Shown: piece after piece, positions 2,815-32,166 of the stretch
Layout: the number at the start of each line of letters is the position of its first letter
Numbering within the stretch: position 1 is the stretch's first letter
Source of the DNA: Thermococcus celericrescens
GTDB taxonomy: Archaea > Methanobacteriota_B > Thermococci > Thermococcales > Thermococcaceae
Length of the DNA: 48,905 bases
NCBI RefSeq assembly: GCF_001484195.1
Contig: NZ_LLYW01000015.1
Span: 1 to 48,905, forward strand
Reading direction: 5' to 3'
Made by a program: the position numbers and the translations under genes
The notes under the pieces: generated by a model
Databases searched by the model: none
Told to the model about the DNA's origin: nothing
Seen by the model: only the letters and a program-made list of their open reading frames with translations

Positions 2815-2853
2815 CTCCTCCCCTTTCGAAGGACGGCTTTCGAGAGAGGGGAC

Positions 2854-3020
2854 TGACCTCCTCTCCGCCGTGAAGTGCGAGGGTTTGCCTAACCCCTCGC
2901 CAGTGGCGGGAAGGTTTACGGGCACTCATCTCCTACTCCCGTCGCCGGTTTCGGCTCGGCCCGAAGGCCGGGTCTTCGGCCCATTACCCCTAATCCCCAA
3001 AGGGGACTTGGGGTTATTGC
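2854..3020 (-). ncRNA. omega-RNA-like right end without its TnpB
   Basis: On the minus strand this block resembles the 3' region of the intact TnpB element (about 32040-32211), where TnpB guide RNAs (omegaRNA) are normally encoded. It shares AATAACCCC, GGGGTAA and GGCCGAGCCG blocks, the terminal hairpin and the terminal GAGGTCA. The guide would be the sequence just beyond 2854 on the minus strand, that is the spacer after ttuA. Whether it is transcribed is not visible; this is inference from the similarity. Confidence 0.35.
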
Positions 3021-3262
3021 CTTAAAGGCCAAACTCCAGTCCTTGACTGCCCAAACGAGCAGCCCATCAAGGACGCCTACCGGCGTCTTCCTCCCAGAAT
3101 GGGAGGACACGATGAAACCCCTCATCTCATCAGGTTCTTTTGAGTGGCCTCTACGAGGCCTTACTACACCCCGAAGTTTAAAAGAGTTTCGACTGTTTAG
3201 GAGCTGTTGGAGGTTTACTGCATCCCCACCCCAAAGGGCGAGGCCTTCAGAAGGAAAAAGTA
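2854..3262 (-). mobile_element. TnpB-less IS200/IS605-type remnant (MITE-like), hairpin-rich
   Basis: This is most of the 520-base gap between ttuA and the next gene, and it carries no convincing ORF. Read on the minus strand, it has both ends of the TnpB element found at 30750-32211. The left end near 3262-3224 (a T-rich run, then GCCTCGCCCTTT) matches the T-rich run and GCCTCGCCCTTT at 30752-30780. Both are followed within about 90 nt by ACTCTTTTAA. The right end has a 7-bp hairpin (2877-2883/2894-2900) and then a ~22-nt tail ending GAGGTCA, like the tail at 32190-32211. The block AATAACCCC...GGGGTAA...GGCCGAGCCG also matches the 3' part of the full element. The tnpB coding region is absent. 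Between the ends lie several hairpins: 3039-3046/3067-3074 (8 bp, plus 4 bp inside), 3089-3095/3101-3107 (7 bp), 3072-3077/3082-3087 (6 bp) and 3146-3151/3155-3160 (6 bp). The boundaries are approximate. Confidence 0.65.
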
Positions 3263-3495
3263 AGACGAAAGAATATTTAAAGCCAGCTGGAATATTTTCT
3301 TACATCCTCGACACCACAAGTAGCGAGGTGATAAAAATGAGCGTACCTGACGGCCTCATGATGAACCTCTGGGAATCACTAAGGATGGGCGAGATAGTCC
3401 TCATGGAGAGGACGGACAGCGGGCTGTTTCATAAATAGTTAAGAGCGTAAAGTTTAAATATTTTTGAGTCATTATTTGTTTTGGTGGAGTTCACT

Positions 3496-4104
3496 ATGAA
3501 GCTTTATCGGACAGGAAAAGCCTCAGAACTCTTAGGCATCAGCAAGCCAACACTCTTAAGGAAAATCAAAGCAGGCGAGATCAAGGCATACAAAATAGGC
3601 AAAGAATACCGCATTCCAGAAAGCGAAATAAAGAGACTTCTTGAGGGTAAAATCCCCGATAAAGTAGTCATTTACGCCAGAGTTTCAAGCAGAGACCAGA
3701 AGGAAGACCTTGAAAGACAAGTCGAATACCTCAAAAGCTACTGCTCTGCCAAAGGTTACCAAGTAGCTAAAACCATCACTGACATTTCCTCAGGCTTAAA
3801 CGAGAACAGAAAAGGCCTAAAACAGCTCTTCAAACTCGTGGAGAGCGGAGAGGTAACCAAAGTCGTGATAACCTGCAAGGACAGGCTCACCCGCTTTGGT
3901 TTTGGATACCTCGAACAATACTTCAACTCTCACGGTGTTGAGATTGAAGTAATCTTTGACGATGAAGAGAAAACACCAGAAAAAGAACTCGTCGAGGACT
4001 TGTTGGCTATTGTAACTTCCTTCGCTGGAAAGCTTTATGGCATGCGCTCTCACAAGAAAAAACGCCTCGTCGAGGCGGTAAAGAATGTCCTCAGAGACGA
4101 TTAA
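3496..4104 (+). CDS. tnpA: IS607-family serine recombinase TnpA (202 aa)
   Basis: This is the transposase that moves the element by serine recombination. ATG 3496 is chosen over the in-frame TTG at 3481 because GGTGGAG (3483-3489) sits 6 nt before it. An N-terminal MerR-like helix-turn-helix (GKASELLGISKPTLLRKIK, then a wing with YRIPESEIKRLL) binds the element ends. The resolvase domain begins KVVIYARVSSRDQKEDLERQ; the first Ser of VSS is the expected nucleophile. The Arg-rich active-site helix CKDRLTRFGF follows. The length is normal for IS607 TnpA, and no catalytic residue appears lost. The stop overlaps tnpB by 20 nt, so translation is probably coupled. Confidence 0.9.
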   Translation: MKLYRTGKASELLGISKPTLLRKIKAGEIKAYKIGKEYRIPESEIKRLLEGKIPDKVVIYARVSSRDQKEDLERQVEYLKSYCSAKGYQVAKTITDISSGLNENRKGLKQLFKLVESGEVTKVVITCKDRLTRFGFGYLEQYFNSHGVEIEVIFDDEEKTPEKELVEDLLAIVTSFAGKLYGMRSHKKKRLVEAVKNVLRDD

Positions 4105-5266
4105 ACTCACCGCAAAATTCAAGCTGAAAGAAACATCTGAAGGGTTAGATGACCTCTTCTCTACCTATCGAGAGATTGTAAACTATCTCATTAACTATGC
4201 TTTTGAGAACAGCATTACGAGCTTTTACAGGCTCAAAAAGGAAACATACAAGAGCCTTCGAAAGGAGTATTCAGAACTGCCGAGCCATTACCACTACACA
4301 GCCTGCCAAATGGCCACTGCAATATTCAAGAGTTACAGAAAGAGGAAAAAGAAGGGGAAAGCTAAGGGCAAGCCCGTTTTTAAGAAGGAAGTCATTATGC
4401 TCGACGACCACCTCTTCAAACTCGACCTTGAGGCCGGGATAATCAAGCTCTCCACTCCAAGCAGGAGGGTTAGGCTGGAGTTTTATCCTGCAAAATACCA
4501 CGAGAAGTTTAAGGGCTGGAAAATCGGTCAAGCGTGGTTGGTGAGAACTCCAAAAGGCGTTTTCATCAACGTTGTGTTCTCCAGAGAGGTTGAAGTGAGA
4601 GAGCCTAAAACTTTTGTTGGCGTGGACTTGAATGAGAATAATGTTACGTTGAGCCTTCCAAACGGTGAGTTTATCCAGATTATCACACACGAGAGGAAGA
4701 TTAGGACTGGCTACTTTGTAAAGCGGAGAAAGATTCAGAAAAAGCTTAGGGCTGGCAAAAATAGGAAAGAACTTCTCGAAAAGTATGGGCAGAGGGAGAG
4801 GAACAGGCTAAACGATTTGTATCACAAATTGGCCAACAAGATTGTTGAACTGGCTGAAAAATACGGTGGTATTGCTCTGGAGGATTTGACGGAAATCAGG
4901 AATTCGATTAGGTATTCGGCTGAGATGAATGGCAGGCTTCACCGCTGGAGTTTCAGGAAGCTCCAGTCAATTATCGAATACAAGGCTAAGCTGAAGGGTG
5001 TTAGGGTTGTTTTCGTTAATCCCGCTTTCACGTCCTCCCTGTGTCCGATATGTGGGGAGAAGCTAAGCCCGAAGGGACACAGGGTTTTAAAGTGTCCGAA
5101 ATGTGGTTTTGAGGCCGATAGAGATGTGGTTGGGAGTTGGAATATTCGCTTGAGAGCCTTGAAGATGTGGGGAGTTACCGTTCCCCCCGAAAGCCCCACG
5201 ATGAAGATGGGAGTGGGGAAGGTCAGCCGTAACGATGTTTACGAACTTTACAAAAGTTATGGCTGA
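4085..5266 (+). CDS. tnpB: TnpB RNA-guided nuclease of the IS607-type element (393 aa)
   Basis: This is an OrfB/TnpB protein, an RNA-guided DNA endonuclease ancestral to Cas12 that helps the element persist. The N-terminal OrfB domain is followed by the split RuvC nuclease: motif I GVDLNENN (Asp181), motif II IALEDLTEI (Glu266), a zinc finger with Cys320, Cys323, Cys337 and Cys340 (CPIC...CPKC), and motif III DRDVVGSWN (Asp347). The complete catalytic triad and zinc ligands suggest an active enzyme. It starts at ATG 4085 inside the end of tnpA. The guide RNA would be expected to overlap the 3' end of this gene and the element end near 5268, taking its guide from the downstream DUF257 sequence; that is from family knowledge, not seen directly. 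Confidence 0.92.
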   Translation: MSSETIKLTAKFKLKETSEGLDDLFSTYREIVNYLINYAFENSITSFYRLKKETYKSLRKEYSELPSHYHYTACQMATAIFKSYRKRKKKGKAKGKPVFKKEVIMLDDHLFKLDLEAGIIKLSTPSRRVRLEFYPAKYHEKFKGWKIGQAWLVRTPKGVFINVVFSREVEVREPKTFVGVDLNENNVTLSLPNGEFIQIITHERKIRTGYFVKRRKIQKKLRAGKNRKELLEKYGQRERNRLNDLYHKLANKIVELAEKYGGIALEDLTEIRNSIRYSAEMNGRLHRWSFRKLQSIIEYKAKLKGVRVVFVNPAFTSSLCPICGEKLSPKGHRVLKCPKCGFEADRDVVGSWNIRLRALKMWGVTVPPESPTMKMGVGKVSRNDVYELYKSYG

Positions 5267-5847
5267 CCAGAACGGATCAGTACTTCGGCTTCTACCAAGT
5301 GGTGAGCTGGGGCAGGAGCAGGGGGTACAAGGTTGCGGTCATCGACATCCTGGACTCACTCCACATCCTAAAGGCCAAGGCGCGGCTCGCCGGTCTGGAT
5401 GACGGGGTTCTGGACAGCGTGAAGGTCATCAAGATAGGCGGCACAATAGAAACCGGGGAAGTCGTCGGATGGATAAGGGACATCTCCGAGCCGGTGATTC
5501 TCGCAAAGAAGTTCATGGAGACCTACACCAAGCTTCTCGAATCAGGAGGACCAACCTTAACGGCTGTGGTGGGTCTTGAGAAGCTCTTCGTGGCATCGGA
5601 GTTCTCGCCGAAGAACGTTCAGGTCATAATCAGCGCCATATCCAAATACGTTGGCGATGAGAGGAGGCTGTCCGTCCAGTTCCTGAAGGCCAACGTTATA
5701 GACGGCATGAGGCAGCCGGTCGTCAGGCTCCTGGAAGACCTCGCAACCACGGTTATCCAGATCTCAAGAAAGGACAGGGCGACCGAATTCAGGGTGCTGA
5801 AGTCGGTGGACCCGAAACTCGAGGGAATGACGATAAAAATATGAAGG

Positions 5848-30861: not shown

Positions 30862-32166
30862 ATGAAGCGCTCAGTAACAGTAAAACTCCAGCCCTCAACG
30901 GAACAAGAAAAGGCTCTTTTCGAATTAGCTCACGCTTCAGCAATAATCTGGAACAAGCTCAATTACCAGCGTTTAAAACAATTCAAAGAATTCGGTAAGA
31001 TTGATTTTAACGGGACGGAAAAGGAAGCCTATCACGAGTTCAAAAACTGGATTGGTGGCTCAACAGTCCAGCAGTTGGCGAGGAAGAACGCCGAAAGCTG
31101 GCGCTCATTCTTCGCCCTCAACAAGAAGAAAAAGAGTGGAGAATTACCAGAATGGTTCAAGCCAAAACCTCCGGGTTTTGTTAGAGAAGAGAACGGGAGG
31201 AAAATCTTCATTATACTACTCCGGAACGACCAATACAAGATTGACGGGAATGTCATCGAGTTGAGACGCCTCGGAAAGTTTGGGAGACTGAGAATCCAGT
31301 TTAAAGGAAAAATTCATCTTAAAGGCAAGCAGGGGCGCTTGGAGATAACTTATGACAACGTTAGGAAGAAGTGGTATGCTCACGTTAGCTTTACCGTGGA
31401 AGAAAAACTAATCAATGGTGAGTGGGTGAGAGTTCCGAGACAACCCTCGGGAAACCTATCGGCGGGAATTGACTTGGGAGTGAACAACCTTATGGCAATC
31501 TACGTTGAAAACGGGGAAAACTTCCTCGTGAACGGGAGACCCTTAAAGAGCATTGATTTTTACTGGCGGAGGAGAATAGCCGAGTATCAATCCAAACTCA
31601 ACAGGAGTGGTTCCAAAAAGAGCAGGAAGCTCAAAAGAATGCACGAGAATGCCAAACTTCAGGCGAAGCACTACATTAATACTGCTGTTAGACAGACCCT
31701 TGAAAAACTCTACCAGTTAAGTGTTTCCAGAATCGTGGTTGGCTATCCGAAGGGGATTGCCAGAAACTCTGAGAAAGGCAGGAGGCAGAATTTCATTCTC
31801 TCCCACGTCTGGCGGTTCAATTATGTTATTAAACGCTTAAAAGAGGTTGCCGAAGAGTATGGTATCACTGTCATTGTTGTTAATGAGGCTTTCACTTCTC
31901 AATCTTGCCCTCTCTGCGGCCAACGCCATTCGAATGGTAGGATTTTCAGGGGTTTGTTTAAGTGCCGCAGGGAGGGCGTTGTAATGAACGCTGACTTAGT
32001 TGGAGCGTTTAATATTTTGAAGAAGGCAGTAAAAACCATAACCCCGAGCCTGCCGGGTTTAACGGTGGGTAGGGGTAACTGGCTCAAGGCCGAGCCGGAG
32101 GGGTTGAAAACCCGCTTTCTAGTGGGTCTGAATGAGACCCCTCAAACCTCTCCGCCCTTAGGTTAG
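30862..32166 (+). CDS. tnpB: TnpB protein with atypical RuvC-II motif (434 aa)
   Basis: This is an OrfB_IS605-type RNA-guided nuclease. RuvC motif I is SAGIDLGVNNLMAI (Asp204) and motif III is VMNADLVGAFNIL (Asp378). At motif II the segment is IVVGYPKGIARN: the residue aligned with the catalytic Glu of the other TnpB (IALEDL) is Gly294. The zinc region has Cys349 and Cys352 (CPLC) but only one Cys (368) in KCRREGV. These features recur, as far as I recall, in a Thermococcales TnpB group, so they are probably lineage traits rather than damage. A shifted acidic residue (for example in RLKEVAEEYG, 325-334) could replace Glu. The ATG at 30862 follows a TATA-like CTTTTAAAG near 30830. Confidence 0.88.
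   Translation: MKRSVTVKLQPSTEQEKALFELAHASAIIWNKLNYQRLKQFKEFGKIDFNGTEKEAYHEFKNWIGGSTVQQLARKNAESWRSFFALNKKKKSGELPEWFKPKPPGFVREENGRKIFIILLRNDQYKIDGNVIELRRLGKFGRLRIQFKGKIHLKGKQGRLEITYDNVRKKWYAHVSFTVEEKLINGEWVRVPRQPSGNLSAGIDLGVNNLMAIYVENGENFLVNGRPLKSIDFYWRRRIAEYQSKLNRSGSKKSRKLKRMHENAKLQAKHYINTAVRQTLEKLYQLSVSRIVVGYPKGIARNSEKGRRQNFILSHVWRFNYVIKRLKEVAEEYGITVIVVNEAFTSQSCPLCGQRHSNGRIFRGLFKCRREGVVMNADLVGAFNILKKAVKTITPSLPGLTVGRGNWLKAEPEGLKTRFLVGLNETPQTSPPLG

Follow-up and report, generated by a model that had tools for sequence, protein, structure and literature searches.

On the minus strand between positions 3263 and 2853 of the window (the whole 48,905-nt stretch of Thermococcus celericrescens DNA that was analysed), TTAC is followed by a left end with a hairpin, the promoter-like motif CGAAACTCTTTTAAA, a chain of hairpins and a right end closing with GAGGTCAG. 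With its limits refined, the unit is complement(2853..3259), 407 bp without a protein gene (Table 1). An earlier note on this DNA had seen both ends, the internal blocks and the terminal hairpin of a TnpB element recur at 2854-3262 in the absence of tnpB, and they are present as described, the left end sharing a 33-nt match (E 5e-5 in 1.5 kb) with the 30.75-kb element. The three additional hairpins that it had listed, H1, H3 and H5 with its extension, are found as well. A protein-coding unit was rejected, as the 69-aa frame found in the window copy lacks conservation and the frames of the copies range from 5 to 81 aa, with lengths random modulo 3. At 3338-5844, 80 bp from the unit, lies an IS607-type element (resolvase 3481-4104, TnpB 4085-5266), apparently inside a gene.

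Table 1. Coordinates of the unit, its parts and related features (window positions unless a locus is given).
Feature	Position	Strand	Remarks
TTAC target tetranucleotide (would serve as TAM)	3260..3263	-	immediately 5' of left end; TTAC in 47/67 copies
Complete TnpB-less IS200/IS605-type element (PATE), 407 bp	2853..3259	-	copies and precise empty sites
Left-end subterminal hairpin H0	3224..3243	-	two-sided changes at 5/8 pairs; 96% paired
BRE/TATA-like promoter motif CGAAACTCTTTTAAA	3177..3191	-	left end; conserved in 65-copy alignment
5' structured RNA domain, H1-H5	3027..3162	-	model R2: 111 bits here; covariation
Hairpin H1	3146-3160	-	covaries
Hairpin H2	3116-3136	-	conserved
Hairpin H3	3088..3112	-	~60/65 copies, at least 7 different stem sequences
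Hairpin H4	3072-3087	-	conserved
Hairpin H5 and lower extension	3039..3074	-	core stem in ~62/65 copies; 8-bp lower extension variable
OmegaRNA/HgcC-type scaffold core, H6-H9	2913..3018	-	model R1: 106.5 bits here
Hairpin H6	2986-3014	-	conserved
Hairpin H7	2965-2982	-	conserved
Hairpins H8/H9	2919-2963	-	conserved
Hairpin H10	2891-2915	-	conserved
Right-end hairpin H11	2863..2882	-	82% of cells paired
Right-end terminus GAGGTCAG, fixed boundary	2853..2860	-	GTCAG in 65/67 copies; final G at 2853
Predicted 16-nt guide TCCCCTCTCTCGAAAG (flanking DNA)	2837..2852	-	matches empty site next to TTAC
Group A tnpB	30862..32166	+	Pfam OrfB_IS605 and Cas12f1-like_TNB
L10e-leader inserts	L179-L183 (G058, G010, G024, G059, G002), e.g. 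L181:1756-1874		five species

A search with the unit returned at least 17 full-length copies from its own genome (E 1e-110 to 1e-52 and 72-83% identity, the self-match being excluded from both), together with partial copies that match the left or the right end only and adjoin tnpB genes. The search of other Thermococcus genomes that the earlier note had proposed revealed a genus-wide family, present in many of 61 genomes, from which 67 copies could be delimited. The four bases preceding the left end are most often TTAC, with TGAC in 7 and TCAC in 3 copies, and the base that follows the nearly invariant GTCAG of the right end is random. When the flanks of 16 copies were joined and used as queries against the genus, the window locus was found empty at nucleotide resolution in two other genomes, with TTAC kept there, and as a contiguous match across the joined flanks in three more; empty sites were likewise found for four other copies (L003, L005, L006 and L119). 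The junctions fall precisely behind TTAC or TGAC and target duplication is absent, which is the pattern of IS200/IS605 transposition. The unit thus inserts 3' of a fixed short motif, carries the subterminal palindromes H0 and H11, is too short for a transposase, lacks a conserved reading frame and shares its ends with autonomous IS605-type elements (the left end at ~80-85% to tnpB elements, the right-end terminus in common). Together with the precise empty sites, these features agree with the published description of PATEs (palindrome-associated transposable elements; PMC3119063) and identify it as one, and its mobility as such is practically certain. A Y1 TnpA is the putative mobiliser in trans: its presence correlates with that of the unit across genomes, but the own assembly contains only three partial Y1 genes, at least two of them at contig edges. 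Two copies, L112 and L127, occupy the same insertion site in two species and differ in blocks that match other copies, which suggests gene conversion.

For the comparison by covariance model that had likewise been proposed, models of the scaffold (R1, H6-H9) and of the 5' domain (R2, H1-H5) were built from TnpB-less copies only. R1 matches each of the 30 tnpB loci tested in this genome at its 3' end (E 3e-7 to 2e-13), the omegaRNA region of the window's tnpB element at 32037-32148 included, so that the 3' half of the unit, a structured scaffold homologous to the tnpB 3' end, is very likely a homologue of omegaRNA. R2 was found in none of the 30 tnpB elements; its only two strong matches within tnpB loci, L035 and L037, are neighbouring TnpB-less copies. 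The 5' domain occurs in 54 of 94 Thermococcaceae genomes and in five of six genera, and in every full copy compared an R1 match follows R2 within ~10 nt; the two domains, being contiguous, therefore represent one RNA. The scaffold forms a lineage of its own, with 80% identity among TnpB-less copies and 63% to either TnpB group. The idea that the unit derives from the full TnpB element consequently survives in part: a non-autonomous element is well supported by the PATE-type insertion with empty sites, while a simple deletion product is ruled out by the absence of the 5' domain from the 30 tnpB elements and is at odds with the separate scaffold lineage.

In Rfam, HgcC (RF00062) and sot0042 give matches under the gathering score to the tnpB ends and to several copies in their 3' half; for HgcC, copies L009, L138 and L143 reach 35.7-36.6 bits against a gathering score of 50 (E 6e-5 to 1e-4). 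The window copy has no HgcC match at E<=1 and the 5' domain no Rfam match at E<=1. No description of the element was found in the openly accessible literature searched. As far as we have found, PATE and omegaRNA are known as parts, while a stable two-domain RNA lineage is undescribed.

The folding of the unit is supported by covariation, as expected from the suggestion of a structured RNA made earlier. In the 65-copy alignment, 93.5% of the cells of a 67-pair structure are paired and 173 show two-sided changes, as compared to 62 in shuffles; the covariation score is 0.188 against 0.117 for shuffled alignments (0/500) and 0.04-0.07 (maximum 0.071) for slid versions of the structure. At one pair of H5, CG is exchanged for UA in 24 copies. 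H3 is poorly aligned by sequence, yet it forms in about 60 of the 65 copies when these are folded singly, from at least seven unrelated stems. A second test on 20 copies from other genera, in an alignment fitted to the model, gave 0.294 against 0.195. Since shuffles ignore relatedness, the weight rests on the number of distinct stems and on this model-fitted test in other genera. The RNA fold of 2853-3165(-) has z = -6.4 and the 5' domain alone z = -3.6, and unpaired core positions are nearly invariant across copies. The strand bias (350 G-T versus 171 A-C cells) cannot tell RNA from ssDNA, because the RNA strand is also the excised top strand. Selection on an RNA-like structure is very likely indeed. 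The motif CGAAACTCTTTTAAA, compared by eye with the published description of Thermococcus BRE/TATA elements (PMC5316973, PMC4247193), predicts a transcription start at ~3155-3162. RNAalifold proposed a helix that would join the right end to the TATA region over a long range; it was set aside as unlikely in RNA since TATA is not transcribed.

Which TnpB could serve such an RNA? The genome holds ~30 nearly intact tnpB genes, dozens of fragments and few Y1 genes, and the tnpB loci L031-L059 fall into two groups that differ in element ends and targets. Group A (78-100% to the TnpB at 30.9 kb) stands mostly after TGAC and ends mostly in TCAT, whereas group B (68-72%) stands mostly after TTAC and ends in TCAG, as the unit does; left-end matches of the unit lie upstream of group B tnpB genes. 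The unit scaffold is equally close (63%) to both groups, so it is the ends and the target, and not scaffold identity, that make group B the better candidate partner. The earlier suggestion of a guide RNA for the TnpB encoded 28 kb away is thus plausible in kind but probably names the wrong partner, the predominant TGAC/TCAT ends of its group A elements weakening its candidacy against the TTAC/TCAG of the unit. In its apical part, H8 of the unit is unlike the H8 of almost every tnpB omegaRNA in the genome and, with scaffold identity at 63%, binding by a resident TnpB is not assured. One tnpB element with a shortened C-terminal end (L046) carries an omegaRNA whose inner piece is like that of TnpB-less units and appears as a chimera. 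TnpB is an ancestor of CRISPR Cas12; read by eye, the protein encoded at 30862-32166 has GIDLGVNN and NADLVGAFN, with VGYPKG at the usual RuvC-II Glu and a NEAFTS motif, like clades with rearranged RuvC-II.

The TnpB guide RNA is known to comprise the tnpB 3' end, the right end and ~16 nt of flank (PMC8612924), and the length and position of the predicted guide TCCCCTCTCTCGAAAG were set by analogy with this ISDra2 reRNA. Flanks are distinct in 66 of the 67 copies, so at the DNA level the unit has the fixed GTCAG end and the variable flank of an omegaRNA. Unit copy number follows TnpB number (Spearman 0.75; for presence, Fisher p 4e-4, over 61 genomes with genome relatedness ignored), an association confounded by Y1 TnpA presence, which tracks the unit equally well, and the 5' domain also occurs in four genomes that lack a close TnpB. 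On this analysis, the chances that the RNA may be used by TnpB in trans appear about even.

Taking these results together, we lean slightly towards the view that the unit is a non-autonomous IS200/IS605 PATE which has, in place of tnpB, a ~300-nt structured non-coding RNA gene, and which parasitises the transposase and the nuclease of its relatives. Y1 TnpA from other elements would move the unit as single-stranded DNA. Transcription would start at the unit's own promoter and run across the right end into flanking DNA, and a TnpB of the TTAC/TCAG group would trim and bind the 3' half, with the flank as guide. The complex would then recut the TTAC-guide junction left by the departing element, whereupon repair would copy the element back, and the 5' domain would serve the RNA as a module for stabilisation, folding or recruitment. 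Most likely, then, the unit borrows TnpA for moving and TnpB for retention, the latter through its putative RNA. A wider proposal, tentative and the less probable of the two, is that of a mobile, free-standing lineage of two-domain RNAs, spread family-wide and carried by none of the tnpB elements tested. It would borrow TnpA to spread, maintain itself by supplying TnpB in trans with a fresh guide wherever it lands, and have been taken up repeatedly by hosts as an mRNA leader, for instance that of L10e.

The L10e case is a 119-nt TTAC/TCAG scaffold insert without the 5' domain, found in the 5' leader of ribosomal protein L10e in 5 of 61 genomes, while the site lacks it in more than 50 others. 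The insert is 88-99% conserved as compared to 83-87% for the upstream coding sequence in four comparable genomes, its H7 differs between lineages by paired changes, and host adoption is possible. Scaffolds also lie between the genes for ribosomal proteins L11 and L1 of two species (L172:2194-2296, L173:1415-1515), with a TATA-like box, and upstream of genes for glutamate dehydrogenase, ADP-forming acyl-CoA synthetase and a PRC-barrel protein (L171:2156-2258, L170:2086-2190, L178:333-434), the gene names being our reading of the translations. Known ribosomal leaders were considered and rejected, as the leader scaffolds have no Rfam match. Of the loci that the models found in other genera and that were tested, leaving aside the 3' ends of the tnpB elements themselves, none has an adjacent full tnpB; a single locus retains just a short C-terminal piece of TnpB. 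Among the HgcC RNAs of T. kodakarensis, HgcC1-3 begin within three transposase genes and HgcC4-5 were detected without one (PMC4247193). Genome G011, probably this species, has three close tnpB genes and one truncated unit copy, L143, which interrupts a gene at ~1,474.4 kb. Linear interpolation from MCM and tnpB positions places TK1679, the HgcC4 gene, at 1,476-1,479 kb; because the two positions are close, L143 is probably HgcC4 and thus an expressed RNA.

These scaffolds bring up the alternative that the RNA works on its own and not as a TnpB guide: it would be stable, bind a protein or a ligand, travel with the mobile element and have been adopted by hosts as a module of mRNA leaders. The occurrences in leaders or upstream of L10e (five species), L1 (two species), glutamate dehydrogenase and others argue for it, as do the high conservation of the L10e insert, with H7 kept via paired changes, the near invariance of unpaired core positions and the loci of other genera that lack an adjacent full tnpB. 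However, copies stop at the right end, exactly where a guide would start, and their topology is that of tnpB omegaRNA. The leader copies are few, with downstream genes that share only high expression, and the paired changes could come from gene conversion by mobile copies. We therefore regard an independent function as unlikely, though it is the alternative to be taken most seriously. A free-standing scaffold might instead be a decoy that keeps TnpB occupied and less active and so protects host or element. The large number of copies, with differing guides, in a genome rich in TnpB fits this, and a scaffold diverged in H8 could bind without activating; but a decoy does not need the guide-proximal boundary that is kept in 65 of 67 copies (although the DNA function of the right end does), which makes the decoy improbable.

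Alternatively, the hairpins of a passive PATE could be selected at the DNA level only, for single-stranded DNA transposition. Y1 transposition in the IS200/IS605 family requires hairpins in the left and right ends, and the ambiguity of the strand bias leaves room for ssDNA. But the internal hairpins seem to be dispensable for insertion, judging from the scaffold-only insert at L10e (unless a full copy was shortened there later), and the invariant unpaired positions and promoter motifs would go unexplained, so we hold this to be slightly less probable even than the decoy. Least credible by far is a dead deletion remnant of a tnpB element in neutral drift. PATEs of such origin are common in haloarchaea (PMC3119063), but the compensatory changes across and within genera contradict drift, the 5' domain does not come from the tnpB elements tested, and the promoter motifs are conserved.

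If the preferred reading of a PATE that parasitises TnpA and TnpB is true, TnpB guide RNAs can live as independent genetic parasites, apart from the nuclease gene, across an archaeal family, and the use of omegaRNAs in trans becomes open to direct tests in Thermococcus kodakarensis or related species. The 5' domain would then offer a natural module with which to extend a compact thermostable RNA-guided nuclease, and the L10e-leader insertion would be a case in which a host mRNA has incorporated a mobile guide-type RNA.

Among known systems, the PATEs of Haloquadratum walsbyi (PMC3119063) and Halanaerobium hydrogeniformans (PMC7290912) are, like the unit, transposase-free with subterminal palindromes, lack terminal inverted repeats and target duplication, and have ends related to IS605-type elements; in the Halanaerobium PATE the right end is complete and the final 58 nt of tnpB are retained (PMC7290912). 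In contrast to these, the unit has a conserved ~300-nt RNA with strong covariation, a domain absent from tnpB elements and BRE/TATA-like motifs, and is spread family-wide in archaea. With TnpB omegaRNA/reRNA (ISDra2; PMC8612924, PMC10278001) and archaeal sotRNAs (Rfam sot0042) it shares, by covariance model, a homologous scaffold that ends at the right end, followed by a flank-derived guide, which in the unit is predicted. It differs from both in the absence of tnpB, the extra 5' domain and the apical part of H8. HgcC RNA (RF00062) has the same 3' scaffold as several unit copies, with matches below the gathering score. The HgcC model lacks the 5' domain that the unit has. Stand-alone omegaRNAs and ORF-less HEARO copies of IscB are, as the unit appears to be, mobile guide-type RNAs without a nuclease gene, but they belong to IscB and not TnpB, have a different RNA fold and are bacterial.
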